From a virus, in the IMG/VR virus record IMGVR_UViG_3300021085_000136, positions 1 to 30,264 of that record: a stretch of DNA of 30,264 nucleotides. One strand, written 5' to 3'. Shown here piece after piece: positions 3,899 to 29,577 of this stretch; position 1 is the first letter of the stretch, and each line of letters opens with the position of its first letter. The notes beneath the pieces are model-generated. The model did not search any database, was not told the origin of the DNA, and saw only the letters and a list, made by a program, of their open reading frames with translations. Both the position numbers and the translations under genes were made by a program.

Positions 3899-3906
3899 CA
3901 AATATA
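3899..3906 (-). promoter_or_regulatory. Late promoter-like box TATATTTG
   Basis: On the minus strand the box lies directly after the T-run of the terminator at 3913-3947. Its downstream edge is 24 nt before the ATG at 3875. Four other late genes carry the same box at 24-27 nt. No conserved -35 or -33 element is seen. Confidence 0.5.
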
Positions 3907-3912
3907 ATACAA

Positions 3913-3947
3913 AAAAATCCAGACCACTCGGAGTAATCTGGATTTTT
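3913..3947 (-). terminator. Terminator after the DUF5675 gene
   Basis: AAAAATCCAGA (3913-3923) pairs perfectly with TCTGGATTTTT (3937-3947). The 13-nt loop contains a small ACT/AGT inner stem. On the minus strand the hairpin is followed by seven Ts. Confidence 0.85.
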
Positions 3948-4014
3948 AGATTGTCGTCAAACAATAGAAAGGAAGTCTTTAAATTATGTCGGACTCAAAG
4001 ACAGAGATAATATA

Positions 4015-4428
4015 CTAATAAGCATCTACTATCGTCAACATAAATTCCTTACAATCGTTAAGTTTTTCTAAAAATTCTGCAAAAGCTTTACGAGAAGATA
4101 GAATAGCCCAATCTCCATTAAGCTCTCCGAACTGCTCTCCGAGTAAAATACACCCCTCAGAATTTTTATCTCTGTTACCCCAATGGAACAATACTAAGTC
4201 ACGGCCTTGAATATCTGTAATCATATAAGTCCATCCGTATTTAGGAGACTTATGTTTCTTAACGATATATTGGCCTGCTGGAATACAAGATACTCTTTTA
4301 ACATTATCCCTAGAGTAAGGTTCTAGTGAAACACAGATTGGCTGTCCGTTCATAACAACAGAACCGAAAGTACCCTCTGAGGGGTTACTCGCGATTCTAG
4401 TTATACGAACTTGATGTTTAGGGTGCAT
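4015..4428 (-). CDS. DUF5675 family protein, candidate cell-wall-active protein
   Basis: This 137-residue protein matches the DUF5675 pattern seen in phages and many Bacteroidota: SEGTFG (17-22), a conserved LEP with E36, CIPAGQY (48-54), GRDLVLFHWGN with H82 and N85, and a GCI motif with C93. The spacing of His and Gly-Cys recalls the H...S-x-GC signature of L,D-transpeptidase (YkuD) folds, so a Cys-dependent cell-wall enzyme is plausible. I know of no proven activity, and the resemblance is inference. No classical endolysin (lysozyme, amidase or CHAP) appears in the window, which makes this gene the best local candidate for a lysis role. It overlaps the previous gene by 11 bases and ends before the terminator at 3913-3947. 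Confidence 0.85.
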   Translation of the reverse strand: MHPKHQVRITRIASNPSEGTFGSVVMNGQPICVSLEPYSRDNVKRVSCIPAGQYIVKKHKSPKYGWTYMITDIQGRDLVLFHWGNRDKNSEGCILLGEQFGELNGDWAILSSRKAFAEFLEKLNDCKEFMLTIVDAY

Positions 4429-4789
4429 CTGGAACCTCGACTAACCCGGCATCTTCGTCTGACAACCCAGAAATATCTGTTAATGTCCCGTCTCTGAGCA
4501 TATCAGACAACTCTAAGTGAGCTTGTAATAATTGAAGCCCTGTGATCCCATTAGAGAAAGTATGTCCGATTAAAGGTTCTAAACTTGCCTCTAACTGAAC
4601 TTTACCATCTGCTCTAATTTGATGAACCCCCTCAGAATCTATAACTCTGTCTAGCATCCAATACCTACCTTTACCTGACGATAAAGATTTCAAATCTCCT
4701 GTAAGACTTCTGAATCCTAGTTGGTGAGAGTAACCATCACCTATGAATAGTTCTTCTACTTGTCTTTTACCTTGAATTTGAATTGCCAT
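4418..4789 (-). CDS. Hypothetical protein downstream of the tail fibre
   Basis: This is a 123-residue acidic protein with no signal peptide and no membrane helix. It begins MAIQIQGKRQVEELF and ends in a very acidic, Pro-containing tail. It starts three bases after the tail-fibre stop and overlaps the DUF5675 gene by 11 bases, so it is translated with both. I recognise no family. Position suggests a tail-fibre accessory or assembly factor. The middle (DRVIDSEGVHQIRADGKVQL) looks beta-rich, compatible with a structural role. Confidence 0.75.
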   Translation of the reverse strand: MAIQIQGKRQVEELFIGDGYSHQLGFRSLTGDLKSLSSGKGRYWMLDRVIDSEGVHQIRADGKVQLEASLEPLIGHTFSNGITGLQLLQAHLELSDMLRDGTLTDISGLSDEDAGLVEVPDAP

Positions 4790-4792
4790 CTG

Positions 4793-7700
4793 TTAATCTC
4801 CTATTGTAGCGACTTCAATAATATCGCCTGCGTTTAGTGTTAAATAACTACCTACACGTACATTAATCTGTACGAAACCATTAGAACTCACATACCCGTA
4901 GAATGTAAATTGCAACCCTGCTAAACTCATAAGCTTAGTATAAAGGGCACTGTTCGGACTCAAAGTAACTACATCACCTACTTCACACCCTGGAACTATA
5001 ATAGTATATTCTATGTTAGTGTTCCCACTCCAAGAAGCATCACCCCCCTGCGTGAATACGTCAAAGGTAGCCTTATTAATATTATTTACTCCACTAGAAG
5101 TAGTCGTATTATCCCATCTCTGTTCTAGTACAGAACCTGAGTAGTTACCATTAATATTTTCTTCGTAAACATAAGTTTCACCGAACCCTAAAGCTGTAAC
5201 TACAAAGTTACTAGAGTTGGCGTTAGATACAACAGAACCTCTTACTTGAACTTGTACTTCGTCAAGGTCTAACTTATCAAACCCTCCAAATACTACTTTA
5301 GAGTTATAGAATATTAGATTAGATACAGTAAGAGAATCTTGTCTACTAAATATAATTTTATCCGAACCTGTACCTGTAGAAGACATTTGGAATATTTCAG
5401 TCCCGTAATGAGAAACTACTCCGTACACTGGAATATTTGTATCTGGTGCTACAGACATAGCACTAATATTTAAGAATATAACCTTTTCGTCAAACGAAGT
5501 ATCTGCTAAAGCAGCTTGCCACTCAGCTAAACTAGAAACAGAATATACTCCATCTAATCCTCCACTACTTGAACCAGACTCGGCTGTATTAATCCACATC
5601 TTCTGTACGAGTTGAGCTGGATTTGTTACAGTTAAAGTATATCCATTAAGAGTAATTTTCTCGTAATACATTTCATTAAACGAAGACGACCCTGTGATAA
5701 TTGTAGCGTTACCTTGAAGAAAAATCTCTCTATAGAATCCGTGTGCTCCAGATAGATTTAAAGTAGCTCCTGCTTCTAGGATAATCGTACAGTTAAATCT
5801 AGGGCCGTTAGATTCCTGGTCTAGAGGGTAATTGACTCCTGACCCATCTCCCGCATCATATCTGTTGAAAATTTGAGCAGTATCATTAGCTTCAACTATA
5901 ATAGGCATCCCGTCAAATTGAGGGTTGTTATCAAAATCATAAGTAGTTAAGTCTGCCAGAACAATAGGTTTCTGTAAAGTTATTTTTGAACTATCATCAA
6001 TAACAGAGCCACCACTTAAAGCTATTAAATCTGCTTCCGTGTAAACATCAAACGCACTAGACGATTGGACATCATCTACATTCAGAATCCTCTTGAAGTC
6101 TGTCCAAGATGTAGTATTTCCGTCATAGGCTCTAAAGTAAGATACTCCAGAGTTCTTCTCAATATACTCTTGATAGATTCTAACATTACCCTCAGTTGCA
6201 GTAGTTCTAACCATTCCGTAGCCGTTAGGTAAAACTCCACCTAAAGTGTCATTAGATACATCATCTACTGTAATCCCGCTACCATAAGTATTAGGGTTAT
6301 CTACATTACCAGAGGTTAGTGAGATTTTCCTAGCGTAATATTCTGAGGGGATTCCGTCTACTTTATTAACTTGAGCATTAGTAAGGTGGTTTCTCTGTCC
6401 TGTAGAGCCTCCTTGTAGTCCGTCAAGGTCGTTATGGTCTGGAATAGCAGGGATGGTAGGAGTACCTGTAATTTCAGAATAACTAACTTGTCTACTAGCC
6501 CAGTCCGACCCATTCCATCCAAGGTAATGGTTAGGGTTTACACCGTCTGGTAAGTTATCTTGTTTATCATTCTGTAAGGATGTAATAGCATTATTGTTAC
6601 TATTAACAGCATCAGCAATTCCTGGAACAGCATCTACGAGGGCTACTTGAGCCTGTGTAAGATGTTGATAGTCTGCTACATTAAGGCCAGATAAATTGTC
6701 GTGGTCTGGAATAGTAACAGGAGTCTCTTCAAAAGTATTGTCCCAGTATTCTTTAGAAATACTACCAGTCAGTGTAGTGTTGGATGAACTGTTTAATTGT
6801 TCATATCTAGACTGTTGAGCAGGACTTCCGTTCATATCTACTTGTAAAGGGGTGCTCAAAGCTAAAGGGTCTATTACTTCAATACCTCTAAAATACAGAC
6901 CTACTTCCTCTCCTACTAGATACTCGTAGCCTACCACTGCGACTGTAGGTGTATGAAAGTAAATATTACAACCTTCTACATCTCCCGGCAGAGTAGTAGA
7001 AATCTCGTAGATAGAGTTGAACTGTAAAGCACTTCCACCTATTGCAGGGTTGGAGTTTGAAAAAGCGATAGCTGAGGGGGAAATGATATTTATTTCCTGA
7101 CCCCAAACATCAAAGATTGTACTTGGAGTAGTTCCAAATAACTGCATCTGCATAATAAGAGTCTTGCTTACATTACCTCCATCGTCTGCTACGATAGGGT
7201 CAGCTAAAGCGGCCACAAACTCGTCATAAGTGTTAATTGTATATAGACCTTTATTACTAGAACCTGTACCACTAATAGAAGTCCAAGAATCCCACGCTAC
7301 TATAGATTCAGGAGTTCTACCTTCTTCGAAGTCATAAGTACCCGTTCTGATACTAATCTCATTAGTAGTTAGATTATAAGCAACCTGAAGTTGGCTACGA
7401 ACATAGATATTAGATCCACCTGGAGTAGGCCCTTCTGTACCCATATTACAATACACTACGAACTTATCAGTATCGTTAGGGAATTTTCCTGTGGCGAATC
7501 CGTTACCGTTAGGGTTAGCAGAAGTATTAGAAGTCCATCCGTTTGCGTTTACAATGTCATTAAGACTCTGTAGACCCGCCTGACCAATAGGTATTGTTAT
7601 TTGTGAAAACAGACTACCTGTGACATTACCAGACTGTTGATTTACATAAGCTAGTAAGTTGTCAATAGCTTCTTTCACTGTACTGCCATCTACGTCTCCA

Positions 7701-7912
7701 TCATAACCTAGCAGGGCAGCAGTATCTTCCTGAGATAAAGCTTCTAGTGATGGAAAGAACCTAGAAACCCCCTCAGCGGTCTTTACTACAATACCTTTTT
7801 GTTCCTGAGGGGTGGTAGCTCCATCGGAGAAGCCAAAACCCCTATCTGGAATGTTGGCTTCTACTGAGGCTCTGTCTACGTTCTGGTGCGGTGTTACGTG
7901 TACTTTTGCCAT
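4793..7912 (-). CDS. Modular tail fibre / receptor-binding protein
   Basis: This is a 1039-residue, Ser/Thr/Asn/Gly-rich, beta-rich protein at the distal end of the tail cassette. Two copies of a repeat common in phage fibres lie near residues 395-427 and 490-522 (IPDHDNLSGL...HLTQAQVALVD and IPDHNDLDGL...HLTNAQVNKVD). After them comes a receptor-domain-like block (RTTATEGNVRIYQEYI...SWTDFKRI) of the kind found in many fibres. A second module type, [YF]-x-[VI]-x-[TS]-x-x-[ED]-[FLW]-x-x-AL, starts near 222, 617 and 787, each followed by stretches that look like beta-helix. The first about 70 residues probably attach to the tail tip. AAGGAG is well placed before the ATG, and a TATATTTA box lies 24 nt upstream. 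It would determine host range. Confidence 0.88.
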   Translation of the reverse strand: MAKVHVTPHQNVDRASVEANIPDRGFGFSDGATTPQEQKGIVVKTAEGVSRFFPSLEALSQEDTAALLGYDGDVDGSTVKEAIDNLLAYVNQQSGNVTGSLFSQITIPIGQAGLQSLNDIVNANGWTSNTSANPNGNGFATGKFPNDTDKFVVYCNMGTEGPTPGGSNIYVRSQLQVAYNLTTNEISIRTGTYDFEEGRTPESIVAWDSWTSISGTGSSNKGLYTINTYDEFVAALADPIVADDGGNVSKTLIMQMQLFGTTPSTIFDVWGQEINIISPSAIAFSNSNPAIGGSALQFNSIYEISTTLPGDVEGCNIYFHTPTVAVVGYEYLVGEEVGLYFRGIEVIDPLALSTPLQVDMNGSPAQQSRYEQLNSSSNTTLTGSISKEYWDNTFEETPVTIPDHDNLSGLNVADYQHLTQAQVALVDAVPGIADAVNSNNNAITSLQNDKQDNLPDGVNPNHYLGWNGSDWASRQVSYSEITGTPTIPAIPDHNDLDGLQGGSTGQRNHLTNAQVNKVDGIPSEYYARKISLTSGNVDNPNTYGSGITVDDVSNDTLGGVLPNGYGMVRTTATEGNVRIYQEYIEKNSGVSYFRAYDGNTTSWTDFKRILNVDDVQSSSAFDVYTEADLIALSGGSVIDDSSKITLQKPIVLADLTTYDFDNNPQFDGMPIIVEANDTAQIFNRYDAGDGSGVNYPLDQESNGPRFNCTIILEAGATLNLSGAHGFYREIFLQGNATIITGSSSFNEMYYEKITLNGYTLTVTNPAQLVQKMWINTAESGSSSGGLDGVYSVSSLAEWQAALADTSFDEKVIFLNISAMSVAPDTNIPVYGVVSHYGTEIFQMSSTGTGSDKIIFSRQDSLTVSNLIFYNSKVVFGGFDKLDLDEVQVQVRGSVVSNANSSNFVVTALGFGETYVYEENINGNYSGSVLEQRWDNTTTSSGVNNINKATFDVFTQGGDASWSGNTNIEYTIIVPGCEVGDVVTLSPNSALYTKLMSLAGLQFTFYGYVSSNGFVQINVRVGSYLTLNAGDIIEVATIGD

Positions 7913-7935
7913 AATGTTTTATTCTCCTTATAGGG

Positions 7936-7943
7936 TAAATATA
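7936..7943 (-). promoter_or_regulatory. Late promoter-like box TATATTTA
   Basis: The box lies 24 nt before the tail-fibre ATG, partly beside the stop of the tail-tip gene. It is the only box of its class here without a hairpin in front, so it would add transcription to the fibre gene on top of readthrough. Confidence 0.4.
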
Positions 7944-7946
7944 ACA

Positions 7947-10900
7947 CTATTCGTCTGGGTCAGCATACGTTCCATCTTGAAACTCGTAATCAGGTGGATT
8001 CTGCACCCCTCCACTCCCTCCGTCAGGGTATCCTATAGAGTCATCTTTGAAGTCCCACTTATAAGGAGAGTTCTGCAAAACAAAGGTATCTACGTCTGTT
8101 TCTATATTCCCACCATCCCAGTAAGTATCTTCCAGAGTAGAGAATACAGCAGGAGGAATAGGCATATAAACTTCAAGCTGTACCTTACCGTTATAATAAT
8201 CTGGAGTTATACGCTGGACGAAACCATAACCTTCTGCTTCAAACCCAGTACCACCCGTATTAGTATGAAACCAAGTCTGTAACTTCACAGCATCCCCGAT
8301 ATCTAACTTCTGGGCCTCTGTAGCTACTCCTTCTTTGTAGACTGTGTGATTCATATTAACTTCGAATGTTACAGTCCACGCTTCAAATAGATGCCACAGA
8401 ATTATTCTCTCAGCTACCTTGTACATAGAATTTACTGGAGGTTGATTACCGCTATAAACGTAAGGAATATTCATATCGTAAAACCATTCCAACTCTTCTT
8501 CTTTTTCAGACTCTACTACAGCTTTAAAATACTTATTTGAAATTCTGTATCCGTCAAGAACTCGTGAAGCATTTCCATTAAGAGTATCCTCAAAAGTTTT
8601 ATATCCTGGACACGTAACCTTGTCCCCCTCAGCATCGTAGTTTACTGTAATAGTCTTATCTACTTTTTCCTTACCTGTATGGTAGTGAAATTTGAAAGTG
8701 AACTTAGATATGATTTCTGACATAGGGCGTAATTTAACACCTACACCAGAAGTTCTAATAATGTCAGAATCTTTAAATGTAAATGCTGAATTTTCGGATA
8801 ACTCTGTACGAGCAGGGTTGTAATAATTTAATTCATGATCCCTGTAATACAAAGATTTCAGAATTGCTCTGTCATTAGAGTTGAAAGTCACCAATCCTCT
8901 AACGTGTCTAGTTTCATTCTCTAGAACCTCGCTGACTGTACTTTGGTTTGTGAACTGAACCCTAGCCATCAAACCTTGTAAGGCTTTAGTAGCTGTACGG
9001 TCTGGAGTAGGAGCATACTTACCAAAACCTTCTCTAAACATCAGATTTTTGACTATATCGTTAGGTGACTCTTCGAGTCTATCTGAGGGGGTATTATTTG
9101 AGAGTAAATCCGTTCTACCATTAGTATGAACAAAGATGTTATCAGACTCGATATTAATCTCTCTAGAAGTCATAAGGTAGGCTTTATCATCACCTTCCAT
9201 CTGACCTCCGAAGTCATAAGTAGCGTGATCTGTACGCAGTACACTTAACGGAGAGATTCCTTTATATGTGCCGAAATCTCCATCTGTAGATTCAGAAGCA
9301 CCTGAGAAAAATGAGATTGTGTATCCAGTACAACTCCTCAAAAATTCAATTTCTTCATTGAAATATTTTTGCGGGATTGTAAGAATATTCTTACCTGTGT
9401 GGATAACGTAAGGAGTCTTTGGTAATCTACCTATCCAAGAACCGTCAGTAGGTCTGTTATCTAATTCATCTACAGGATCTAACCCTAGAGAATCCGAAAA
9501 CTCAGTAGATGTCCCGTCTTCGTTAGTTAGATACATATTCTGGTCAGCATCAAAATCGAAAAACTTATCATTACCCCCAATAACTGCTGGTCTGTTATAG
9601 AATATATGCCAACCATCATTAGAGTACAACTCATTCGTCAGGTCGGCTCCAGAATGACTTAAATAAACAGTGTCTGCAAATACTACTCTTGAAAGTCTAG
9701 GGTTTATGTGGTTAAGTGTGACTGTATATCTAAGACTCCCGCAAAATTTTTCAGCAGCATCTTTACCGGATACTCCATGCATATAGTTATAAGGAGATAC
9801 ACCATACTGGTCTATGTCATAGTCTGGACTAGCCCTCTCTAACCTTATAGCTTTAGAGATTACTATAGATACGTCAGTATCAGAACCTTCTAATCCGTTT
9901 ATGGTATCGGAATCTAGTTCGTAGTCGTAAGTCTGTTTGATGTCAGGAGCTATATCATTAAACCTATCTAGTGTTTGGTCAGCAGAGATTTGAGTGTTTC
10001 TTCTCATAAACCCTAGACCTAGAAGTTTAGATTGACCGGCCCTTCCTGGATGTACTGGGAATAAAGCGTTTGTAAACCCTGTAGTATCAGTAAGTTTTAG
10101 AGGTGTAGTAGAAGGGTATGTACTTCTGTCAAATGTACTAACAAAAGGGTTTTCGTAATCGTAAACCTGAGAAGGGCTGAACTCATTCCATAATATCCTA
10201 GACCATAACCCTGCAACTCTTCCAGAGATAAATTTAGATTTATCCGTAGCTTGATTTATTCTGTATACACTCCAAGCTGTAGAGAAACTTAAAAAGTCTA
10301 TATCTTCTGTGTTAGTAGTACCTGTCTCGTATGTACGGAAAATCAACCCCTCAAAATTTCTTGACTCCACAGAACTTAAAATTCCTGAAAATCCAGAGTC
10401 ATAAAATACTCCTGTACTAGAGTCTTTATACCAGGAAATTGAAGGGAAAGTATTAATCATACTAGGAGTGTATAAAGACATTCTCTCTTGCTGAGTCATA
10501 GTGTTCAAAGCTGGGTCTGTAGATTCTCCGTTAACCATATACTCAGAGTATTCATCCCAAGGTTTATAAAAACCTCCTTGGGCTGTGTGAATATTCACTC
10601 TTTTATATAACTCTAATCCGCTACCTTCATCGTCCTCTAGTAGTCGTACCGAATACTCCGTAGGTAATTCTAAAGAGTATTTATCTATATTAACTGAAGT
10701 AGCCCCTTGGGGGTAAATAGACCTGTCGACCTTACCTGAGCCGTTAGGGTTCTGAGTGTAGGTAAAAGGATTGGATGCGGTACAGGCAGAAACATTAAAA
10801 GTCCCTTTTACTTCTCCTATTATTCCTGTATCTGATGAATCATCTATAACAGCAGGTATTTTAATACTTGAAGTAGATTCTTGGTATGCAGTATAGGCAG

Positions 10901-12788
10901 GAGTATTAAGTAGGACATAACTAGAACCTTCTGCTTCCCCTTCTTGTGTTAAGTCTCTGGCTTCTAATACTGTATGTTTTGTAGAAGTTTCAACTAAATC
11001 TAACCCTTTTAGAGGTTTGAATTTTTTAGAGTCCGTATCGTAAGAAAACAGCTCAATTTCAGATTGGTTAACTTGAGGGGTGATTCCTCTATTAATAAAT
11101 CCGTCCTGTTGTTGGTAATCTGTAATTAATATTACAGCCTTCTCTTTAAGTTTCGCTAGATAGGTAGTCTCTGCAAAAGACTCTTCCGGGTCTTGCTCAT
11201 AAGGAGTGTCTGTAAGATCTAAGTAGAAGGAGACTGTACCGAAAACCTCCGCTATCTTATTCACTTTAAATAATTCGTACTCTTGAAATACTACTTTATC
11301 GTCATTAGCATCTACATTAGAAACTCCTGAAGTAGCGACAATACTTATGTATAAATCAGGAACTCTAGTAGTCGTAGTGAAGCTTAAAGCAGGTTTATCT
11401 GAAGTTACTCCTGGAATATCAGCGAAAGTTTTAGCTACGTCCAGCTTTGTATTAAGAGTAACTTTAATCTCGTCTGTGTCAGGCTTACTGACAACTTTAA
11501 ATTTCATATAAGTTGAATCGGACGTACTAACAAGAGGTAAAACTTGGTTCTTATTAACCACACTCTGCATCTTCGCATAGTCCCATCTACCATACGTTAC
11601 ATAGGCTATATTCCCTTGCTCGTCTTCATTGTCGGTTTGAGGATAAAGGTCGCTCAAGAGCTTGCTAGGTATCTTTTTATTGTAGTCTAATAATAATTTA
11701 GGCTCTACCTTTACAACATATTTATCGTAATCAAAATTTATCTCCATCGTATATCCGTGAGAATACTCGTGCGTTACTCCTGAAGTCCTGTCGTGAATAT
11801 AGAGAGTACAGAATGATCCATTCAGGTTACTCTGTAGAGTTTCCCAATGGAATCGGTCAGCATTAGAAATACCTACCGAGAACCCCTCAAGAGTTTCTAC
11901 TCCGTAGCCTTTAGAAATATCTGCGTACTTTACAGGAAAGCCAATACCTTTATCTACTATAGAATCAGCTTTGAAAACGGTTGGGTAATAAGGCTTGTCT
12001 AAATCTGTATCTATTGTGGAGTCACTGACAGCTAAATCTGCAAATGCAGCATACCTAATTCGACCACCGAAAAAGTTTATATCTGGATTATTTTCAGTAA
12101 CAAGTCTATTACTCGGCACTGAATCCTCTCCACACAATTCTTCTGTGATGTCTTCTTCAGTTACGGTAGGGTCTGTGTGGTAGGCAAACCAAATTTTTGC
12201 TGTATCTCTAGCGTAGAAAGTTTTGTTGTCTTCTGAGGGGGATAGTACAAAGTCAGCTTTGGTGTCTACCGAGTAATCAACAGAGATAGCATTTAGCGTA
12301 AAGTCTACTAGAAATTCATAAACTGGAGTAGTAGGTTTCAAACTACCTGTAGCAGGCTTGTATAGAAGAACTAAGTCGATAGAGAACAGGTTAGTGTCAG
12401 TCTCACCTTTAGGTTGCATCTCAACTATGGTGACTTCCATATCCATAAGGTTTATAGGTGCACCATCTTCGTAAGGGTCTAAGTCTGCTCCGAATACAAG
12501 CTCACCTTTGTTTAAAGTAATTACAGGATTGTTATCTCCTTCGTCAGAAGGTGTTCCGGTATTATCAATTAGATACTGCACTAGAGGTTGATAGTCAGGC
12601 CGAGTAATATTTTCCAGTGTGAACTTACCTAGAATCTCCTGCCTATCGTCACCGAAATTAATAAGGTCTACTGACCCATTAGTGTAAATAAGCTCTTTGA
12701 CAGACTTACCATCATTTACAGTGACCCCGCCTTCAAACCTAGTGTTTACGTCAAAGTGCTGTTCGTCATTAAAACCCTTGAATATCAT
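7947..12788 (-). CDS. Very large tail-tip / baseplate-hub protein (Tal-like by position)
   Basis: This 1613-residue protein is encoded between the distal-tail candidate and the fibre, where siphophages put the tail-associated (Tal or hub) protein. It has no signal or membrane segment. Residues about 1-170 look like a beta-rich ring domain. The region near 290-400 (EGFSVGISNADRFHWETLQ, FCTLYIHDRTSG, KLLLDYNKKIPSKLLSDLYP) resembles hub domains of other phages. The C-terminus, near 1515-1560 (YGFVQRITPDYYNGKVQLEVYMPIPP), looks like a beta-sandwich followed by a Gly/Pro/Asp tail. No peptidase or lysozyme motif was found. It is much longer than a minimal Tal, so extra host-binding domains are likely. 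It shares ATGA with the upstream gene. Confidence 0.75.
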   Translation of the reverse strand: MIFKGFNDEQHFDVNTRFEGGVTVNDGKSVKELIYTNGSVDLINFGDDRQEILGKFTLENITRPDYQPLVQYLIDNTGTPSDEGDNNPVITLNKGELVFGADLDPYEDGAPINLMDMEVTIVEMQPKGETDTNLFSIDLVLLYKPATGSLKPTTPVYEFLVDFTLNAISVDYSVDTKADFVLSPSEDNKTFYARDTAKIWFAYHTDPTVTEEDITEELCGEDSVPSNRLVTENNPDINFFGGRIRYAAFADLAVSDSTIDTDLDKPYYPTVFKADSIVDKGIGFPVKYADISKGYGVETLEGFSVGISNADRFHWETLQSNLNGSFCTLYIHDRTSGVTHEYSHGYTMEINFDYDKYVVKVEPKLLLDYNKKIPSKLLSDLYPQTDNEDEQGNIAYVTYGRWDYAKMQSVVNKNQVLPLVSTSDSTYMKFKVVSKPDTDEIKVTLNTKLDVAKTFADIPGVTSDKPALSFTTTTRVPDLYISIVATSGVSNVDANDDKVVFQEYELFKVNKIAEVFGTVSFYLDLTDTPYEQDPEESFAETTYLAKLKEKAVILITDYQQQDGFINRGITPQVNQSEIELFSYDTDSKKFKPLKGLDLVETSTKHTVLEARDLTQEGEAEGSSYVLLNTPAYTAYQESTSSIKIPAVIDDSSDTGIIGEVKGTFNVSACTASNPFTYTQNPNGSGKVDRSIYPQGATSVNIDKYSLELPTEYSVRLLEDDEGSGLELYKRVNIHTAQGGFYKPWDEYSEYMVNGESTDPALNTMTQQERMSLYTPSMINTFPSISWYKDSSTGVFYDSGFSGILSSVESRNFEGLIFRTYETGTTNTEDIDFLSFSTAWSVYRINQATDKSKFISGRVAGLWSRILWNEFSPSQVYDYENPFVSTFDRSTYPSTTPLKLTDTTGFTNALFPVHPGRAGQSKLLGLGFMRRNTQISADQTLDRFNDIAPDIKQTYDYELDSDTINGLEGSDTDVSIVISKAIRLERASPDYDIDQYGVSPYNYMHGVSGKDAAEKFCGSLRYTVTLNHINPRLSRVVFADTVYLSHSGADLTNELYSNDGWHIFYNRPAVIGGNDKFFDFDADQNMYLTNEDGTSTEFSDSLGLDPVDELDNRPTDGSWIGRLPKTPYVIHTGKNILTIPQKYFNEEIEFLRSCTGYTISFFSGASESTDGDFGTYKGISPLSVLRTDHATYDFGGQMEGDDKAYLMTSREINIESDNIFVHTNGRTDLLSNNTPSDRLEESPNDIVKNLMFREGFGKYAPTPDRTATKALQGLMARVQFTNQSTVSEVLENETRHVRGLVTFNSNDRAILKSLYYRDHELNYYNPARTELSENSAFTFKDSDIIRTSGVGVKLRPMSEIISKFTFKFHYHTGKEKVDKTITVNYDAEGDKVTCPGYKTFEDTLNGNASRVLDGYRISNKYFKAVVESEKEEELEWFYDMNIPYVYSGNQPPVNSMYKVAERIILWHLFEAWTVTFEVNMNHTVYKEGVATEAQKLDIGDAVKLQTWFHTNTGGTGFEAEGYGFVQRITPDYYNGKVQLEVYMPIPPAVFSTLEDTYWDGGNIETDVDTFVLQNSPYKWDFKDDSIGYPDGGSGGVQNPPDYEFQDGTYADPDE

Positions 12789-16300: not shown

Positions 16301-17994
16301 AAGGAATCCATCAATCCACCATTATCAAAGAAGCTAAAAGCTTTAATGAAGGTGTTTCTGATAGTCTCACCTAATTTATCAAACTTACCGCTAAATGTAT
16401 CAATGGTAGTCTCAGCCATACTCTGAACTGTACCTTTATAGTTAGATACATCAGAATATACACTCATTAAGTCTCTATATGATGCAGCAGTCTCTCCTGC
16501 CGCTATACGTTCCTTTTTCTGAGCTTCTGTAAGTCTTATGGTGGATAGTAAGGCTAAAGCACCTGTAGAGGCGTACTGACCGAAGTATTCTTTAACTCTA
16601 GCAGAAGAGAGTTTCATATCAGCTAGAGATTCTAGCTTCTCTGAAAATTCTGCTGTTACAGGAATACCTTCTTTTTTAAGTCTTTTTGAAACTTTAGAAG
16701 TAGCATCACCTAGACGAAGCATCATCGTCCTAGCGGCAGTACCAGCACGAGACGAGTTCACTCCCTGATTCGCCATAGTTGCTAGGGTTGCAGTAGTTTC
16801 TTCTAAGGTAACATTTGTATTACCTGCGATAGAACCTACATACTTCATTGATCCTGCTATCTTTTCAAAATCCAAAGCAGAGCTAGAAACCGAGTTAGCT
16901 AATAAGTCGCCTACTCTACTGGTTTCAGCAGCAGAGAGTTTATACATATGTAAAACCTCACCAATAAGTTCTGCAGAGGATTTAGTGTCAGCTCCTACTG
17001 CTTTGGAGAATTTGGTGATTTGAGGGGCGATACGAGCTGCTGTATCTGCGTTAAATCCTAGTTTTGAAAGCTCTAAGTTAGCTTTCAGTACATCGTCAGC
17101 AAGTACACCAAACGCAGAGGCTGCTGCCATAGCAGAGTTAGCAGCCGTATTCAACTGAACATCCGTAGCTCCTGTAACAGCCTGGATACCAGCTAAGGTC
17201 TGTTGTATTTTTGTACCTTGTGCGAAGATAGCGATCGCAGTAGCCATAGCAGCAGTAGTAGCAGCTATATAAGGGGTAAGACCTGCGAACCCTAGACTGA
17301 GACTAGAAATACCTGAGATTGCAGCAGGAAGAGCTGTAGCAAATTTACCAAGCTCCCCCTCAAAGGCTCCTGAGTAATGCATAGCTTGACCCATACTTCT
17401 AGCTCCGTGTAGAGCGTTCTGCATAGGGGTTCTCTTACCTCTACTTAAACCTAGCTTCTGAGCATTAGCTTGTAGTTCCAGAGTGTTCAATCTACGTTTT
17501 TCTAAAATTTCTAATTTCTGAGCTTGTTTAAGTTTAGTTACTTCAATAGCAGCCTGTTTCTGAAGCTCTAAAGTTTCTTTCTTTTCAGTGTGTAGAATAG
17601 ACTTAGCTACAGATTGTTGCTTGATAAGATTAGCTTGTAAAGGTTTATTTAACGCATCCTGCTGCTTTAGAGCTAGACGCATCCCTGCGGCTTCCATCTT
17701 CCTTACGTGGTCTAGCTTCATAGCTAGAACATTATCTAGAGTTTTCTGAACATCAGACTCATAAGCTTTATTAGCTCTTCGTCTAGAAGCTGTAAGCTCC
17801 TTCTGAGTCTTCTCTATATTGTTCTCAATCCGTTTAGTACCCTTACCGGCAGCAGAGGCTTCTACTTTAGCTTCTTTCAACTCTTTCAGAGACTGAGTAA
17901 GTTTCTTGACCTCTTTCTGAGAGTCTACGAAATCCTTCTTGAGGTCGGATCTAACCTTAATATTCAGTTCTATGTCAGTCTTCTTAGAAGCCAT
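13315..17994 (-). CDS. Tail tape measure protein (TP901 family core)
   Basis: This 1559-residue protein sets tail length and is ejected with the DNA. The first about 190 residues are Lys/Glu/Gln-rich coiled coil. A hydrophobic Ala/Gly stretch lies near 215-260. Then comes the TP901-type core with typical phrases (LELSKLGFNADTAARIAP, VGADTKSSAELIGEVLHMYK, VTLEETTATLATMANQGV, SRAGTAARTMMLRL). A second hydrophobic stretch lies near 1400-1445 (TAQAIMGTWAGYAAMGLPGM), followed by a conserved NGGMPRG...NEHGQEGVLN segment near the C-terminus. At about 0.15 nm per residue the tail would be roughly 230 nm, an inference from other siphophages. The gene starts inside the end of the second chaperone frame (11-base overlap). 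Confidence 0.95.
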   Translation of the reverse strand: MASKKTDIELNIKVRSDLKKDFVDSQKEVKKLTQSLKELKEAKVEASAAGKGTKRIENNIEKTQKELTASRRRANKAYESDVQKTLDNVLAMKLDHVRKMEAAGMRLALKQQDALNKPLQANLIKQQSVAKSILHTEKKETLELQKQAAIEVTKLKQAQKLEILEKRRLNTLELQANAQKLGLSRGKRTPMQNALHGARSMGQAMHYSGAFEGELGKFATALPAAISGISSLSLGFAGLTPYIAATTAAMATAIAIFAQGTKIQQTLAGIQAVTGATDVQLNTAANSAMAAASAFGVLADDVLKANLELSKLGFNADTAARIAPQITKFSKAVGADTKSSAELIGEVLHMYKLSAAETSRVGDLLANSVSSSALDFEKIAGSMKYVGSIAGNTNVTLEETTATLATMANQGVNSSRAGTAARTMMLRLGDATSKVSKRLKKEGIPVTAEFSEKLESLADMKLSSARVKEYFGQYASTGALALLSTIRLTEAQKKERIAAGETAASYRDLMSVYSDVSNYKGTVQSMAETTIDTFSGKFDKLGETIRNTFIKAFSFFDNGGLMDSLDQVTEWWKRNEHNILGLMDSITEGFGAVFDTIGSIGSAFYKALVTPVNAVIAGLDEISEKLGGLQAIEIGNNAARSQMVSTTFKAQGHIAAVQEAKSMYKGIFHTLDNLTTRDAKMDKSDLTEASKALVKITDREYNTSAKVMEAYAELERRKSELKGAELGPDNFINQSIIDALTGKDERSIAYQERVLHRAEESDRIAENQLQAHNKVVEELRSIYKLADTPEMTRNSLEAQVKTAYDTAVDKIAVLNAKRLKMADINNKTNGEWAEGYTAADAQAISTEIQALVSEFNKMYGATVKLVAKEGLTADDIKFEIGHAYDTRVQSGRTKSEADQAFKAFKLSSDSTKDFFKKMESRANRVGGNLLDLYMVGFQKDVGFTKSPMNTDPVSTKKGGGRRSSGLSKISLGNFDVQDYFVPLNNSIREFINRETATTKQYEDSIKQRIDYVKQINAINKRFDQKRLEIEHKIAEQTVNANKNIADKLQVIFKEMAPGKTAGIDTGSIHRKAQEQQKYDLMKASGRFSEGELAIQQKLIDAQTAQVKEMAKVINGLMKGYNHETATDAQKKAQAIKVFGKEKVGSSSPEEINRALQLFTTAGDIVEVMKQMRDAGIEFTGALKEALTPVQKQQKIAKTLSDADMAGKSYKQRNLSSYNAYSSSGGWAYDPFSSAAVKYQAGENRRGVQKDTQTARYNELSMNLSIAEGEYEEGSKEAQLYINAQKQLALNFKDFEKAQQSERMAARYEMFGQMIAGAQKYYSTVTNLANTYMQMRDLQYQREIKQIDDKYKRAMSWTDTLNKQGMLTDRAAERRNILLEKNKEEAKKKAFQKEKKYKKAQIVLNTAQAIMGTWAGYAAMGLPGMIAASAQTAMLAGLATVQMNMVDSQKYANGGMPRGANANVTMNEHGQEGVLNASAMARMGSRNLHNLNKGYSSDDNSENSTSNVYHISYSPTTTYTGSSSSPADIQNNEAENRRKFSEMLKDTNARGYDKNTRVRI

Positions 17995-18391
17995 CTTTTC
18001 CTGCCTTTGAGTTCATCATTGCTACTCTCTGTTTATGCTCATCGTCTAGTTTACCAGTGAGATTAGTTACAGTTTCGCAAAATTCCAATACTTTTAAAAA
18101 ATAACTACTTTGTTCCGCCATACCTCCTGATTCTGGAAGAATGTTATAATTTTTGAAATGACAATAGAATCTAAAACCCTGATGGTTGTGGTCTGTTATC
18201 TGACTGAGGGGGCATCGCGATTGTGGTATCTTCTTCATACCATTACACTCAGGACACACCTTACCTTGAACTCTACCTTCTGCCATACAAGAAAGGCAAG
18301 GGATAGTCCACCTTGCCTTTTTCACTTCAGAGTGACATCCCATAGAGTTATCTGAGTCAGGTAAACAGCTCCCGTGTTTAACCCAACCCAC
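17984..18391 (-). CDS. Tail assembly chaperone, frameshift extension (gpT-like) with Cys-rich motif
   Basis: This is the second frame of the chaperone pair, lying between the first chaperone and the tape measure. A GTG at 18391 gives 135 residues, but the frame is open upstream to the slippery site at 18415-18421. The more likely product is a 279-residue fusion starting at 18822. C32-x2-C35 and C46-x2-C49 (CLSCMAEGRVQGKVCPECNG) resemble a zinc ribbon or half of a DnaJ-type finger, with extra Cys at 9, 19, 60 and 77. The region YCHFKNYNILPESGGMAEQ and a helical tail match the C-terminal segment typical of such extensions. The fusion should bind the tape measure and recruit tail-tube subunits. 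Confidence 0.8.
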   Translation of the reverse strand: MGWVKHGSCLPDSDNSMGCHSEVKKARWTIPCLSCMAEGRVQGKVCPECNGMKKIPQSRCPLSQITDHNHQGFRFYCHFKNYNILPESGGMAEQSSYFLKVLEFCETVTNLTGKLDDEHKQRVAMMNSKAGKDGF

Positions 18392-18408
18392 ATATAAACA
18401 AGTAAGGA

Positions 18409-18822
18409 TTATGAGTTTTTTGAGTCTTCCTCGTCAATCTCTTTACCTAACTGAATCTGGGCCGCAAGCTCTGTACGAACAGATTTAGGGATGCGAGCAA
18501 GAAAATCATCGTTAATAGGATTAACATTCCCATAAACTTTAACCAGTTGGTTACGCACCACCTGAATAGGTTTACCTTCTTCGTCAAAGAAGTTACGAAC
18601 TCCGATAAGACCGATAGTAAGTGCTGCATAATTCTGATCCCCGTTACGCATTTCGATTGCACCAGTACGAGTAACATTACCCATAAGGTTTTCCAGAATT
18701 GTGTCATCTGAGGGGGTTAGAACCTTTAACTCAAAAACTGTTTGTTCTGCTACAGGTAATTCTCTGTCCTCGAAAGGAACGTAATCGTATGTAGACTTTG
18801 ATAAAATTGGTACTGATTTCAT
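18409..18822 (-). CDS. Tail assembly chaperone (gpG-like)
   Basis: This 137-residue protein lies between the major tail protein and the tape measure, in the place of lambda G. The start ATG has TAGGAG 7 bases upstream and a TATATTTA box 26 nt upstream. The sequence has a beta-rich N-terminal half (VFELKVLTPSDD) and a C-terminal helical part ending in acidic residues plus KNS (LGKEIDEEDSKNS), as in many siphophage chaperones. The KNS codons sit on an A-AAA-AAC heptamer three bases before the stop, so a fraction of ribosomes should shift -1 into the next frame and make the longer G-T product. It is released before the virion is complete. Confidence 0.85.
   Translation of the reverse strand: MKSVPILSKSTYDYVPFEDRELPVAEQTVFELKVLTPSDDTILENLMGNVTRTGAIEMRNGDQNYAALTIGLIGVRNFFDEEGKPIQVVRNQLVKVYGNVNPINDDFLARIPKSVRTELAAQIQLGKEIDEEDSKNS
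18415..18421 (-). promoter_or_regulatory. Programmed -1 frameshift slippery site A AAA AAC
   Basis: On the minus strand the zero frame reads TCA AAA AAC TCA TAA. The heptamer A-AAA-AAC fits X-XXY-YYZ, and after a -1 slip the frame reads AAA AAA CTC ATA ATC and continues without a stop into the next chaperone frame to 17984. The position between tail tube and tape measure is where nearly all siphophages use this device. I found no strong downstream stem; a weak TCACT/AGTGA hairpin lies about 100 nt further on. Confidence 0.85.
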
Positions 18823-18847
18823 AGTAACTCCTATTTGTTGGCTTCAT

Positions 18848-18855
18848 TAAATATA
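18848..18855 (-). promoter_or_regulatory. Late promoter-like box TATATTTA
   Basis: The box lies just beyond the T-run of the terminator at 18866-18893. Its downstream edge is 26 nt before the chaperone ATG at 18822. It would start a tail-assembly transcript (chaperones, tape measure, tail tip). Confidence 0.5.
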
Positions 18856-18865
18856 CACAAATAAA

Positions 18866-18893
18866 AAAAGTACAGAGCGAACTCTGTACTTTT
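18866..18893 (-). terminator. Strong terminator after the major tail protein gene
   Basis: A perfect 12-bp stem (AAAAGTACAGAG with CTCTGTACTTTT) closes a tetraloop that reads TTCG on the transcribed strand, an especially stable loop. The hairpin is followed by a T-run (TTTTTTTATTTG). It ends the major tail protein message 26 bases past the stop and should lower expression of the downstream chaperone genes. Confidence 0.92.
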
Positions 18894-18918
18894 AGATGCA
18901 GATTTTGAACAATTACGC

Positions 18919-20721
18919 TTAGTAGAACACTATACGATATTCATCGTCCTGGTCTTTCGTAGAGCCAACAAAAGAAGCCTCTGCACCAAGAGTCGTAACT
19001 CCGTCACGTTCTGAGTTAGAACCACCTGTAGTCTGTGCCTTTTTCGCATAGAAGTACATACGGTTATTAATCTCGTCATTACTCAACTGATACTCAAGAG
19101 CAACAGGCTCACCTGAGAACCACTTACCGAAGTAGTCGTAATCAGCTTCACTCATAAACTCTGGGTCAAATGAACCTTTAGGAGAACGAGCATTAACAAC
19201 AGCGTTGATGAATCCTCTATCTGCTGAGTTACCAGATTGACGAAGGGCTACTTCATTACCAGATTCTACTGAAACTTCAGAGAAGGCTGGTTTGTATCCA
19301 CCGAACAACAAGTTTGCATCACGAAGAGTTGGAGGTACAAGAGAAGAGTAAACAACATCTTCTGTCATAACGTGGTCGCCAAATCCAGCTCTGTAGTTAT
19401 CGTTAGTATTAGCTAAAGATAATGCTAGAGTAGTTGTAGTACCTGTCGCTGAACCGTCCTGTAAGAATAAGATGTCACCATCTACTACAGTTGACACGTC
19501 CCCCTCAAGAACCTCAATCCAAATCTCAGCATCAGTCAAAGCACCACCGGCTACTGTAAGAGCTTTACGAACTACAAATTTAACGTCTCCGCCAGAACCT
19601 ACAAGTAATACAGAACCTTCTGGTAAGTCCATCGCAGGAGTTCCGTTCACAGTGTAAATTTGTCCGTCTGGTACAATACCTTGGAAGTCAAATTCGAATT
19701 TACCAAGACCAGAGTTCTCTGCCATAATAGAGAAGTTACCCATTGCTCCGTAAATTGTACGTTGATAACCTTCTTCTTCTACACGAATAGTCATAGATTT
19801 CTGGTTACGAGAAATTGGATATACAGCAGAACCTACTACAGCGGATTCTACACTACCTGTTATAAACGTACCTAATACAGACCCGTCCTCTGAAACTACT
19901 TCATACTCTGTAGCGTCTGCAAGAGAAGGAGCAGTAACACCATCAGCTTTAAGAGTTTCGTAGTAAACTACATCTCTACGCTTACCTAAATCTACTGGGA
20001 TTACGATACGAGCACCCATATCGGACAACCCGCCTGCGCCTACAGTGTCGATATTCAAAACACCACCGACAAAAGAGCTACCATCAATCTGAGAGATTAA
20101 GATACCTTCGTTAGCGTTGAAGCCTGTACCGCCTACATTTACTACAGCAGATACGATAGCGTTAGAGGCTACTGTTACGTCAATAGTAGCTCCTACACCT
20201 GAACCTGTAGTAGTAAAATCTACACCTTGTACGATAGTGTAAGTACCGTCTGCATTAGAGCCAAAACCTGTTCCTACTACAGATAATGTAGCGATAGATC
20301 CCGAAGCTCCTCCACTCGTAGCATATAATTTACTATTCACAGTAAACGTCTCTGCTGTGTTTGAAGGGTCGAATGAAACTGTATCCAAGTCAATGGAGAA
20401 TACATTTCTAACACCCATTGAGCAGGCTTCTAAGTAATCTACTACTTTTGGTTTTACAAATCCTGGCCCTTCTTCACCTTTGAACTCGTGAGTGAATTTA
20501 GCACCACCAGAAATTTTTCCGATAACACCTTGAAGTTTAGTGATAGAGGATCTGGCTACATCACGCTCAATCATTTCTACTTCTGGGTCGATGTTAGGAG
20601 CTACAGCTACTTCAAGTCCTGCATCCGCAGCACCTAAATCTAACTCCATCCCTGTCTCACAGTCTTCTAGTCGTCCTAGAATCTGTCTTACTCTTTGTAA
20701 CTTAGTATTACAACCTGACAT
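18919..20721 (-). CDS. Major tail (tube) protein with an inserted beta domain
   Basis: This 600-residue protein has the start typical of siphophage tube proteins: a basic helix (TKLQRVRQILGRLEDCETG), then about residues 45-80 a run ending in MIERDVARSSITK and FTHEFKG. A Gly-rich repeat-like block near 135-232 (SVVGTGFGSNADGTY, VNVGGTGFNANEG) interrupts the fold and resembles surface beta domains of other phage structural proteins. The C-terminus (RMYFYAKKAQTTGG ... DDEYRIVFY) is again typical of tube subunits. AAGGAG precedes the ATG by 8 bases, and a very strong terminator follows, fitting a highly expressed single gene. It is about twice the size of a simple tube protein, so decorated tails are expected. 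Confidence 0.85.
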   Translation of the reverse strand: MSGCNTKLQRVRQILGRLEDCETGMELDLGAADAGLEVAVAPNIDPEVEMIERDVARSSITKLQGVIGKISGGAKFTHEFKGEEGPGFVKPKVVDYLEACSMGVRNVFSIDLDTVSFDPSNTAETFTVNSKLYATSGGASGSIATLSVVGTGFGSNADGTYTIVQGVDFTTTGSGVGATIDVTVASNAIVSAVVNVGGTGFNANEGILISQIDGSSFVGGVLNIDTVGAGGLSDMGARIVIPVDLGKRRDVVYYETLKADGVTAPSLADATEYEVVSEDGSVLGTFITGSVESAVVGSAVYPISRNQKSMTIRVEEEGYQRTIYGAMGNFSIMAENSGLGKFEFDFQGIVPDGQIYTVNGTPAMDLPEGSVLLVGSGGDVKFVVRKALTVAGGALTDAEIWIEVLEGDVSTVVDGDILFLQDGSATGTTTTLALSLANTNDNYRAGFGDHVMTEDVVYSSLVPPTLRDANLLFGGYKPAFSEVSVESGNEVALRQSGNSADRGFINAVVNARSPKGSFDPEFMSEADYDYFGKWFSGEPVALEYQLSNDEINNRMYFYAKKAQTTGGSNSERDGVTTLGAEASFVGSTKDQDDEYRIVFY

Positions 20722-20779
20722 ATATTACTCCTTGCAAGAATATGTAAAATAATGGTCTTCTTAAAAAATACAACTTTTT

Positions 20780-21556: not shown

Positions 21557-22230
21557 TATAAAAACCTATCTGCTATGGTAGCTCGGCTACCGTTAAATCC
21601 TGCTTTACCTTCACCAAAACGCTCCACAATAGTTGAAGCTAGTCTATTCGACAATATATCAGACTTCTCATTTATATATTGCTGTAAACCTCTAGGCTGT
21701 CTAGGTAATGTAAGTTTATCTACTAAGAACCAGTGAGCAGTCTTAGCTTTTTTACTAGCTCCTAGAACTCCCCATACATTTTTATTCTTGCCTCTAGGTT
21801 CAGAGAACATCCTAAGAATAACTGCCTTACTAGGGTTTACTCTACGTTTTACTTTTGTATTAGGAGCTAATAAGAATTTACGGCCTGCTGCAGGGTAGAT
21901 AGAGACTTCATCAGGACGGGTAAGAGACAGTTTACCTTTTGGGGTGTAAGCAAACACACTTCCTGTAAACGCATTACTCTGACCCATCCTAGTTTCAACA
22001 ACATCGGTATAACTCCAGGCGTTGTAAAGTCTACCTTTATTTCGTCTGAAAGCTCCTCCGTTATTAGATCCATAATCGTCTTTATCTCTATTGTAAAATT
22101 TATATCTGATACCGTCACGTAAAGCCTGTAGATTCCTCTGCATAGACCTTTTAACGGTTTTATCGGCATCCCTCATAGAAGATAACCTTTTGATTACCTT
22201 CTGTTCGAATTTAGCTATTTCGTCAGCCAT
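21556..22230 (-). CDS. HK97 gp10-like neck protein
   Basis: This 224-residue basic protein begins with a helix typical of the gp10-like group (MADEIAKFEQKVIKRLSSM) and has Arg/Lys-rich stretches and a central beta region (AFTGSVFAYTPKGKLS, AAGRKFLLAPNTKVKRR). It lies between the head-tail adaptor and the tail-terminator candidate, where head-closure or gp10-like neck proteins are found. It follows the adaptor gene after a 9-base gap and overlaps the next gene by one base. At 224 residues it is longer than the usual 120-150, with a C-terminal extension (ASTIVERFGEGKAGFNGSRA). Confidence 0.6.
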   Translation of the reverse strand: MADEIAKFEQKVIKRLSSMRDADKTVKRSMQRNLQALRDGIRYKFYNRDKDDYGSNNGGAFRRNKGRLYNAWSYTDVVETRMGQSNAFTGSVFAYTPKGKLSLTRPDEVSIYPAAGRKFLLAPNTKVKRRVNPSKAVILRMFSEPRGKNKNVWGVLGASKKAKTAHWFLVDKLTLPRQPRGLQQYINEKSDILSNRLASTIVERFGEGKAGFNGSRATIADRFL

Positions 22231-22239
22231 ACTGAACTG

Positions 22240-22827
22240 TTACCCGAAGAACGCTAATCTATAAGGTCGTATTGCTCTGATAAGCTCTTTTCTAAATACT
22301 GGAGCATAGTATTCTTCAGCGTTAGTTCCAGAGTTACCAATCTTAGATACAGAGATTGTTTTCTTTCTTTTGTATTCAAACAGACATTGTAGTAATACTT
22401 CATATTCAATCTCTGGGTATTTGGCGATAAAGTCGGCTGTATCTGTAGCCATACCGCCAGTGTAAGTTACAGAGAAAGAATCCCCTTGTAATGTGAAATC
22501 GTAGGCGAATAAATCTTGAATCCAACCTCTGTCAGAATATAGACTGAAAGGTTTAATTTCGTCAAGGTCTAGTACAACATCCTGAATCAAATCTTTAACT
22601 TCAACTAAGGGCCCTGTTAAAGGAGCAGCCTGTAACTGAAATTTACAATTCGTTTTCTTGGTGTAATGGAAAATTTCGGTGTACTCACCAATTTGAATTT
22701 TCCGCCCCATGTATTGAGCTACCTTATAAGAAACCCCTTTTATAATCATATTAAGAAGGTTATCTTCTTTCCCATTAGGAAAAGTGTTATCAAGCTCTAA
22801 AAGTCGCTCTAGTGTGGTTAAATTCAT
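22240..22827 (-). CDS. Head-tail connector / adaptor (gp6-like)
   Basis: This 195-residue protein has the layout of the HK97 gp6-like adaptors that ring the portal: an N-terminal helical bundle (LLNMIIKGVSYKVAQYMGRKIQIGEYTE), a strand block with LQAAPLTGPLVEVKDL, then a beta region ending in SFSVTYTGG, and a C-terminal helix pair (YEVLLQCLFEYKRKK ... IRAIRPYRL). It lies after the capsid gene and one small gene, and before the gp10-like protein, as expected. The TATATTTA box 24 nt upstream and the terminator in front of it suggest that it starts a connector/tail transcript. The Shine-Dalgarno (GAGG) is weak. Confidence 0.82.
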   Translation of the reverse strand: MNLTTLERLLELDNTFPNGKEDNLLNMIIKGVSYKVAQYMGRKIQIGEYTEIFHYTKKTNCKFQLQAAPLTGPLVEVKDLIQDVVLDLDEIKPFSLYSDRGWIQDLFAYDFTLQGDSFSVTYTGGMATDTADFIAKYPEIEYEVLLQCLFEYKRKKTISVSKIGNSGTNAEEYYAPVFRKELIRAIRPYRLAFFG

Positions 22828-22850
22828 CTATTACCTCGTGTTTTATATTC

Positions 22851-22858
22851 TAAATATA
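22851..22858 (-). promoter_or_regulatory. Late promoter-like box TATATTTA
   Basis: The box lies three bases beyond the T-run of the terminator at 22866-22893 (TTTTTGTTTATATTTAG) and 24 nt before the adaptor ATG. The sequence TTTTTGTTTATATTTA is repeated exactly in front of the gene at 22919-23281. Confidence 0.5.
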
Positions 22859-22865
22859 AACAAAA

Positions 22866-22893
22866 AGCCTGCAAGTATTAGAACTTACAGGCT
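22866..22893 (-). terminator. Terminator between the Lys-rich gene and the adaptor gene
   Basis: AGCCTGCAAGT pairs with ACTTACAGGCT around a short AT loop. The one mismatch is a G-U wobble in the minus-strand RNA. Five Ts follow on the minus strand. It lies 25 bases past the stop at 22919. Confidence 0.88.
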
Positions 22894-22918
22894 GATAGTT
22901 GAAATTCCTTGTCGGGGT

Positions 22919-23281
22919 TTAATTTCTACGTAATGCTTCTGCTAATAAATCTGATAACTCTACAGGCATTTCAAGTTTACGGAATTGGCCCGCACAGTCT
23001 TTGTCTGTAATAGGGTCAGATATTTCAACTTCTTCTCCTGCTGGGATAGTAGCCAGAATACGAGTAGAAGGATGGTCATACTTATAGTAAGCATAACCTT
23101 TCTTTACTTTGAATTTCTTAGGTACTACTACATCACCTTTCTTAGGCTCTTTTGACAAGTCTTCGTCTGTCAAAGTCTTTACAACTTCTTCAGGTACAGA
23201 CTCGTGAGGTACTGCTAAATCTTTTTCTTCTTTAACTTCTTCTGCTTTCACTTTCTTTGTAGATTTTTTCTTTGCTGCCAT
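22919..23281 (-). CDS. Lys/Glu-rich small structural or accessory protein
   Basis: This is a 120-residue protein. I chose the ATG at 23281 because CAGGAG lies 7-12 bases upstream and a TATATTTA box lies 27 nt upstream; an in-frame TTG at 23320 falls inside the terminator. The first about 55 residues are low-complexity Lys/Glu/Val (KKKSTKKVKAEEVKEEKD), followed by a compact domain (KFKVKKGYAYYKYDHPSTRILATIPAGEEVEI read in parts) and a helical end. It is encoded between capsid and adaptor, as an independent unit flanked by two terminators. That fits a head decoration or head-completion protein, or a nucleoid-like packaged protein. I recognise no family. Confidence 0.75.
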   Translation of the reverse strand: MAAKKKSTKKVKAEEVKEEKDLAVPHESVPEEVVKTLTDEDLSKEPKKGDVVVPKKFKVKKGYAYYKYDHPSTRILATIPAGEEVEISDPITDKDCAGQFRKLEMPVELSDLLAEALRRN

Positions 23282-23307
23282 TATAAGGCTCCTGTTAAAT
23301 GGTGTTA

Positions 23308-23315
23308 TAAATATA
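23308..23315 (-). promoter_or_regulatory. Late promoter-like box TATATTTA
   Basis: The box directly follows the T-run of the capsid terminator (23322-23353) and ends 27 nt before the ATG at 23281. It is the same TTTTTGTTTATATTTA arrangement as at 22851-22858. Confidence 0.5.
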
Positions 23316-23321
23316 AACAAA

Positions 23322-23353
23322 AAATCCCCTCAAAGTAATCTCTGAGGGGATTT
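23322..23353 (-). terminator. Strong terminator after the capsid gene
   Basis: A perfect 11-bp stem pairs AAATCCCCTCA (23322-23332) with TGAGGGGATTT (23343-23353). The minus-strand T-run follows (GATTTTTTG). Both arms contain the genome-wide TGAGGGG heptamer, one in each orientation. It ends the capsid message 21 bases past the stop. Confidence 0.92.
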
Positions 23354-24567: not shown

Positions 24568-24597
24568 TACAGACTCCTTCGATAGGGTTAGTTATAT

Positions 24598-24633
24598 AAC
24601 TGCTAAATAATATAACATAATTATTTAACAGTT
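24598..24633 (-). promoter_or_regulatory. AT-rich inverted repeat in the capsid leader
   Basis: AACTGCTAAATAAT (24598-24611) pairs with ATTATTTAACAGTT (24620-24633), 14 bp with one G-U wobble in RNA and an 8-nt loop. There is no T-run, so it is not an ordinary terminator. On the minus strand it is followed by GTTATATAAC, whose downstream end is 24 nt before the capsid ATG, the same distance as the TATATTT(A/G) boxes. It may be an mRNA processing or stabilising hairpin or a variant late promoter. Confidence 0.5.
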
Positions 24634-24648
24634 GTAGTGTTGTTGTAA

Positions 24649-25594: not shown

Positions 25595-25598
25595 AGAT

Positions 25599-29344: not shown

Positions 29345-29355
29345 GAAAATGACGG

Positions 29356-29421: not shown

Positions 29422-29577
29422 ATTATGTCTAGCTACCCATTACAGCAATATTACGGCAAAATTCTCAAATCCTACCCCAATATTACAGAATCTTACTTAA
29501 ACTATCTGAAACCTAACCAAAAGATACATAAACTCACTATACATGTAAGAACATACTGTTTTTTATTACTCACAAAA

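Follow-up and report, generated by a model that had tools for sequence, protein, structure and literature searches.

The window, a virus fragment of 30,264 bases analysed here over its whole length, carries five boxes of the form TATATTT(A/G), all before late genes and at a nearly constant distance from the start codon, and four of the five lie directly behind a strong hairpin. We think it likely that the five boxes are promoters. Our preferred reading, to which we give roughly even weight, is that they are late promoters independent of a -35 element, placed behind terminators and read by host RNA polymerase together with a phage late factor; that a phage factor is what reads them is, taken by itself, an even call. 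The preliminary description of this DNA had proposed modules made of a terminator and a -35-less promoter. These modules are well supported by the position of the boxes, their 8-nt extent, the terminator context, and a layout that recurs around TATAAATA, while the readers that had been suggested for them are not established.

The boxes and their genomic setting

The plus strand of the window holds NrdB and small genes. The long minus-strand block runs in the order TerS, TerL, portal, prohead protease, major capsid (HK97 type), head-tail adaptor and tail genes, followed by a 1559-aa tape measure, large tail proteins, and late accessory genes. The boxes precede the head-tail adaptor and other genes within the block of head and tail genes. 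The window is strongly divergent: portal and major capsid have about 20-31% identity to known phages, the best TerL match has 44.6% identity with partial protein coverage, and the 1613-aa tail protein matches nothing in known phages. Rfam and tRNA scans of the window found nothing.

As side observations, a 135-aa gene with CxxC pairs (17984-18391, zinc-finger-like) sits between the position of the tail assembly chaperone and the tape measure, and it is an unusual occupant of the slot before a tape measure. Upstream of TerS (29350-29431) we observe TAAAATTCAGAGCAAAAA twice and a sigma70-like promoter, TAGACT-17-TATACT; TerS itself has no Shine-Dalgarno sequence and starts directly after a TATATT.

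All five boxes that had been described before late genes are present on the minus strand (Table 1). The distances to the ATG given for them earlier, 24, 24, 26, 24 and 27, agree with the 23, 23, 25, 23 and 26 nt that lie between box and ATG, because they had been counted to the A of the ATG. We correct the start of the gene behind box 23308 to the ATG at 23281. Shine-Dalgarno sequences precede all five boxed ATGs, and their core is the only thing common to all five sites in the stretch from box to ATG. Upstream of the box, only the T-run and TTTTGT are common to the sites.

Table 1. Boxes, adjoining terminators, and upstream regions of late genes that start without a box (window coordinates)
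Feature	Position	Strand	Details
Box TATATTTG	3899-3906	minus	23 nt before ATG 3875 of gene 3093-3875
Box TATATTTA	7936-7943	minus	23 nt before ATG 7912; gene 4793-7912, 1039-aa tail-region protein
Box TATATTTA	18848-18855	minus	25 nt before ATG 18822; gene 18409-18822, tail assembly chaperone position
Box TATATTTA	22851-22858	minus	23 nt before ATG 22827; gene 22240-22827, head-tail adaptor
Box TATATTTA	23308-23315	minus	26 nt before ATG 23281; gene 22919-23281
Intrinsic terminator	3913-3947	minus	16-bp stem, -18.3 kcal/mol, z -5.9; T-run runs into box 3899
Intrinsic terminator	18866-18893	minus	12-bp stem, -14.7 kcal/mol, z -5.6; behind gene 18919-20721
Intrinsic terminator	22866-22893	minus	11-bp stem, -17.3 kcal/mol, z -5.6; behind gene 22919-23281
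Intrinsic terminator	23322-23353	minus	14-bp stem, -21.3 kcal/mol, z -5.6; behind major capsid gene 23374-24567
Upstream region, major capsid	24568-24648	minus	AT-rich hairpin, no box; nearest variant TATATAAC exactly 23 nt before ATG
Upstream region, prohead protease	25516-25598	minus	AT-rich hairpin containing TATATTTT, 36 nt before ATG; TATATATA 13 nt before ATG
Upstream region, gene 18919-20721 (tail tube-like)	20722-20779	minus	No box, no hairpin

Counted over the entire window, the box word is not over-represented. It is found 7 times where 4.5 are expected, and 13 of 100 shuffles reach 7. The earlier statement that almost all AAATATA words are these sites goes too far: the plus strand has AAATATA seven times, five of them at these sites, and there are two further occurrences of TATATTT. 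The overall count is thus ordinary, and the unusual thing is the placement before gene starts. Five genes have a box 20-30 nt before the start against 0.06 expected, and none of 5000 shuffles, performed region by region so as to preserve the dinucleotides of each upstream region, reaches five. As a guard against choosing the motif after the fact, we compared the most frequent 7-mer found anywhere in the upstream regions with that of shuffled ones. The top 7-mer is TATATTT, present before 6 genes, and in none of 2000 shuffles was any 7-mer as frequent.

Three late genes with an intergenic start do not have the box: the major capsid, the prohead protease (no box at the standard distance), and gene 18919-20721. 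The hairpins upstream of capsid and protease both contain TATATT. These three starts may use variant boxes or other promoters, or they may be read from upstream.

Extent of the element and its terminators

How long is the element that is recognised? We count 35 TATATT hexamers on the two strands, and 7 of them are followed by TR, namely the five boxes and 2 of the 30 others. At the background rate of 2/30, finding TR at five of five sites has a probability of about 1e-6. Because TR is fixed at the boxes and rare elsewhere, we take the recognised element to be 8 nt, longer than a sigma70 -10 hexamer.

The strong hairpins described directly before the boxes hold up at four of the five sites, with stems of 11-16 bp and folding z-scores of -5.6 to -5.9. 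At these four, a G+C-containing hairpin is followed by a T-run as in an intrinsic terminator, and the box comes 6-10 nt past the stem. The exception is box 7936, whose 34-nt gap has no hairpin (folding z +1.7).

That the sites share no -35 was also borne out: terminator stems of unrelated sequence occupy -20 to -35, and no -35 is common across the sites. A promoter scan scored none of the five as a sigma70-type promoter. Neither a TTGACA-like -35 16-18 nt upstream nor an extended -10 TGn is found, save the TGn at 7936, which forms a perfect extended -10 (TGT-TATATT) and is the sole correctly spaced TG; the distance of TG before the hexamer is otherwise inconsistent (1, 2, 2, 0 or 2, and 3 nt across the sites). 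A class of promoters with an upstream activator, which would have a common site at -55 to -36, was considered and rejected, as no word is shared there. Since unrelated stems fill -20 to -35 and there is no common upstream site, a promoter that depends on a -35 or on upstream activation is unlikely. The box, its spacing, the terminators, the extent of 8 nt, and the absence of a common -35 or upstream site are all direct observations.

Relatives and T4-type late promoters

The only near relative found for the window is contig 3300021084_000028 (L008, L012), which is 99.6% identical over 16 kb, and because of this identity L008 is uninformative as to whether the boxes are conserved. Searches of viral contigs with the major capsid and TerL returned only the 99.6% identical L008, L009 and L012, and a search of viral contigs with NrdB returned no relative. 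With a profile built from five TerL sequences we obtained 80 loci, none of which has another gene in common with the window; the same holds for 80 TerL loci from named genomes, and a portal search in genomes found nothing. Among the named TerL kin, Gammaproteobacteria come first, which we regard as a weak pointer to the host.

Two differences from L008 are seen elsewhere in the window. Of the 58 substitutions that separate the window from L008, the tape-measure gene (13795-16980) contains 42, with 36 synonymous and 5 non-synonymous codons, a cluster that looks like a recombination patch. And at 29487-29570, between the last gene and TerS, about 83 bases of the window are replaced in L008 by about 230 unrelated bases.

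Late promoters of T4-type phages are served by gp55, gp33 and gp45 together with host RNA polymerase. T4 itself has a late promoter that consists of a single isolated box, TATAAATA, located at -13 to -6 and recognised by gp55, a sigma factor of the phage (PMC1524935). We scanned IMG/VR for the arrangement TTTTGTN-box-SD-ATG using three boxes: TATAAATA, the reversed control ATTTATAT, and TATATTTA. The TATAAATA scan found at least 120 stretches. The 120 matches listed comprise 38 products, with a gap to the ATG of 24.7 +/- 3.2 nt; 80 loci examined among the matches listed include 33 distinct products in a promoter context, 26 of them with a hairpin directly upstream. The reversed control found 23 stretches, 1 product, and 0 hairpins. 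Terminator, TTTTGT, TATAAATA, about 25 nt, and ATG is thus a common layout of T4-type late promoters.

We propose that the window modules function in the manner of T4-type late promoters but with a different box, because their layout and spacing match those of the TATAAATA modules. The resemblance to T4 noted earlier thus stands for the layout (same spacing and terminator context, no -35) and fails for the letters of the box. Like the T4-type promoters, those of the window would have an 8-bp AT-rich box before late structural genes, without a -35, with terminator and TTTTGT directly upstream and about 25 nt to the ATG. Unlike them, the box is TATATTTR and not TATAAATA, and the capsid of the phage is of the HK97 type and its gene order siphovirus-like, unlike in T4. 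The record of L012, which is nearly identical to the window, contains no TATAAATA with an SD and ATG behind it. The layout is already known from T4-type phages; the box in it is a different one here.

The TATATTTA scan found 61 stretches, with 25 products in a promoter context (against 1 in the reversed control) and 14 with hairpins. We had considered these as evidence that the box is conserved in unrelated phages, and dropped them because most are a different promoter. In two of the carriers, the marine phages G005 and G006, which use Shine-Dalgarno sequences, motif discovery finds a longer enriched motif, TATTTATATATGAA, with TATATTTA forming no more than its front part, and for this reason we do not count the carriers as using the same box. 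The motif does contain TATATTTA in some copies, and one copy, before an endolysin, stands behind a terminator and TTTTGT, but the boxes of the window do not have its downstream extension. A similar extension, TATATTTATATGAAAG, is found in G013. In the two marine phages (113 and 169 kb; loci L415-L429), TATTTATATATGAA recurs before many genes, and neither has a gp55-family or sigma70 region 2 match. Another candidate carrier, L108, which has a tail-tube-like protein in common with the window, was rejected; its box is antisense to its genes, and we take it to be chance. A contig with Bacteroidota-like genes, L152, has a box with TTTTGT directly before an ECF-like sigma gene (10625-11273). Among the publications searched, none joins a TATATTTR box with phages.

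Candidate readers and the proposed mechanism

Which factor would read such a box? Scanned against transcription-factor families, the genes of the 30-kb fragment include no sigma, gp55-family or RNA polymerase gene. Using a gp55-family profile that also recognises the cyanophage gp55 of Syn9 (phrog_234), we find the family in 7 of 14 large TATAAATA records versus 0 of 13 large records with a TATATTTA match. Genes with sigma70 region 2 above the cut-off are present in 3 of 15 TATATTTA records versus 5 of 21 controls; as they are not commoner in the former, we do not connect the box with a sigma gene. A phage sigma reads the late promoters of phiEco32 and 7-11, which consist of a small number of well conserved -10-like motifs ahead of structural genes (PMC4331800); the motif there is TGTGATGTTATA-like and unrelated to TATATTTR. 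Jumbo phages also have short motifs without a -35, but of other sequence: a late TATG at the start site in phiKZ and a late AACA-N6-TA/G in AR9 (PMC7598289).

A simpler explanation would do without a phage factor altogether. The boxes could be the TATATT -10 elements of weak host promoters of the sigma70 type, in which T-rich upstream DNA or an extended -10 replaces the -35. TATATT matches TATAAT at 5 of 6 positions, site 7936 has its perfect extended -10, and the use of Shine-Dalgarno sequences, together with TerL kin that are mostly gammaproteobacterial, suggests a host with an ordinary sigma70. We still find this explanation rather unlikely, given that the TR after the hexamer is fixed at five sites and rare elsewhere, that four sites are without a -35, and that the spacing of TG is inconsistent. 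The preliminary description had noted a resemblance to the Bacteroidota -7 element (TAnnTTTG), and the host could be a member of that phylum whose sigma-A uses the boxes as its -7 element. The published consensus is TAHHTTTG with a near-invariant G-5, in a phylum that does not use Shine-Dalgarno sequences (PMC6847099). What survives of the resemblance is the TA..TTT core. TATATTTR agrees with T-12, A-11, T-8, T-7 and T-6, box 3899 ends in G, the tape-measure protein weakly matches Cellulophaga and Bacteroides phages, and there is the box of L152. The key G, however, is A in four of the five boxes, and a Shine-Dalgarno core is present at 17 of the 23 ORF starts of the window (74%), versus 7% of internal ATGs, and versus 0 of 7 starts in L152, whose neighbouring genes are judged Bacteroidota-like from their translations. 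This reader is disfavoured by the last base and by the use of Shine-Dalgarno sequences, and we consider it very improbable.

The boxes might instead act in the RNA, as an AU-rich leader for mRNA processing or for ribosome (S1) binding, with the hairpins as processing or stability elements. The constant distance of the box to ATG and Shine-Dalgarno sequence would fit, as would a hairpin upstream at four of the five sites. Such roles do not need a strict eight-letter sequence, though, the T-runs of the hairpins are typical of terminators and so require a new start downstream, and the same layout is found around T4-type late promoter boxes; we regard an RNA role as improbable. It could also be that AT-rich spacers between T-runs and Shine-Dalgarno sequences hold the same word by chance, as these regions are short and AT-rich and the word shows no enrichment across the window. 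With dinucleotide-preserving shuffles that average 0.06 and never give 5, we hardly believe this at all.

We return to the reading that we prefer, in which late gene expression is probably restarted at the boxes in the style of T4. From the arrangement of the sites we infer promoter function, start position, late timing, and a phage factor. Transcription of the preceding late operon would end at the intrinsic terminator, and RNA polymerase would start anew on TATATTTR just past the T-run. The box would lie at about -13 to -6, with the start some 6 nt downstream of it, and the resulting mRNA leader would be about 17-20 nt long and contain the Shine-Dalgarno sequence. Such restarts would allow head, connector, tail, and late-accessory genes to be expressed at separate levels. 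Because unrelated stems occupy the -35 region, recognition would have to rest on the 8-bp box alone, as in T4 late promoters, and for recognition of this kind we propose that the host RNA polymerase carries a late specificity factor made by the phage, whose gene would lie outside the fragment. It is possible, and we suggest it only tentatively, that a siphovirus-like lineage with its own late factor outside the gp55 family, reading TATATTTR, has converged on the T4 layout of a terminator plus a minimal promoter.

If this is true, a minimal 8-bp late box fused to terminators is also used, with different letters, by an unrelated siphovirus-like lineage. Such use would speak for a phage specificity factor not yet described and for a convergent design of late promoters, a promoter class that could be recognised in orphan phages from its layout alone.
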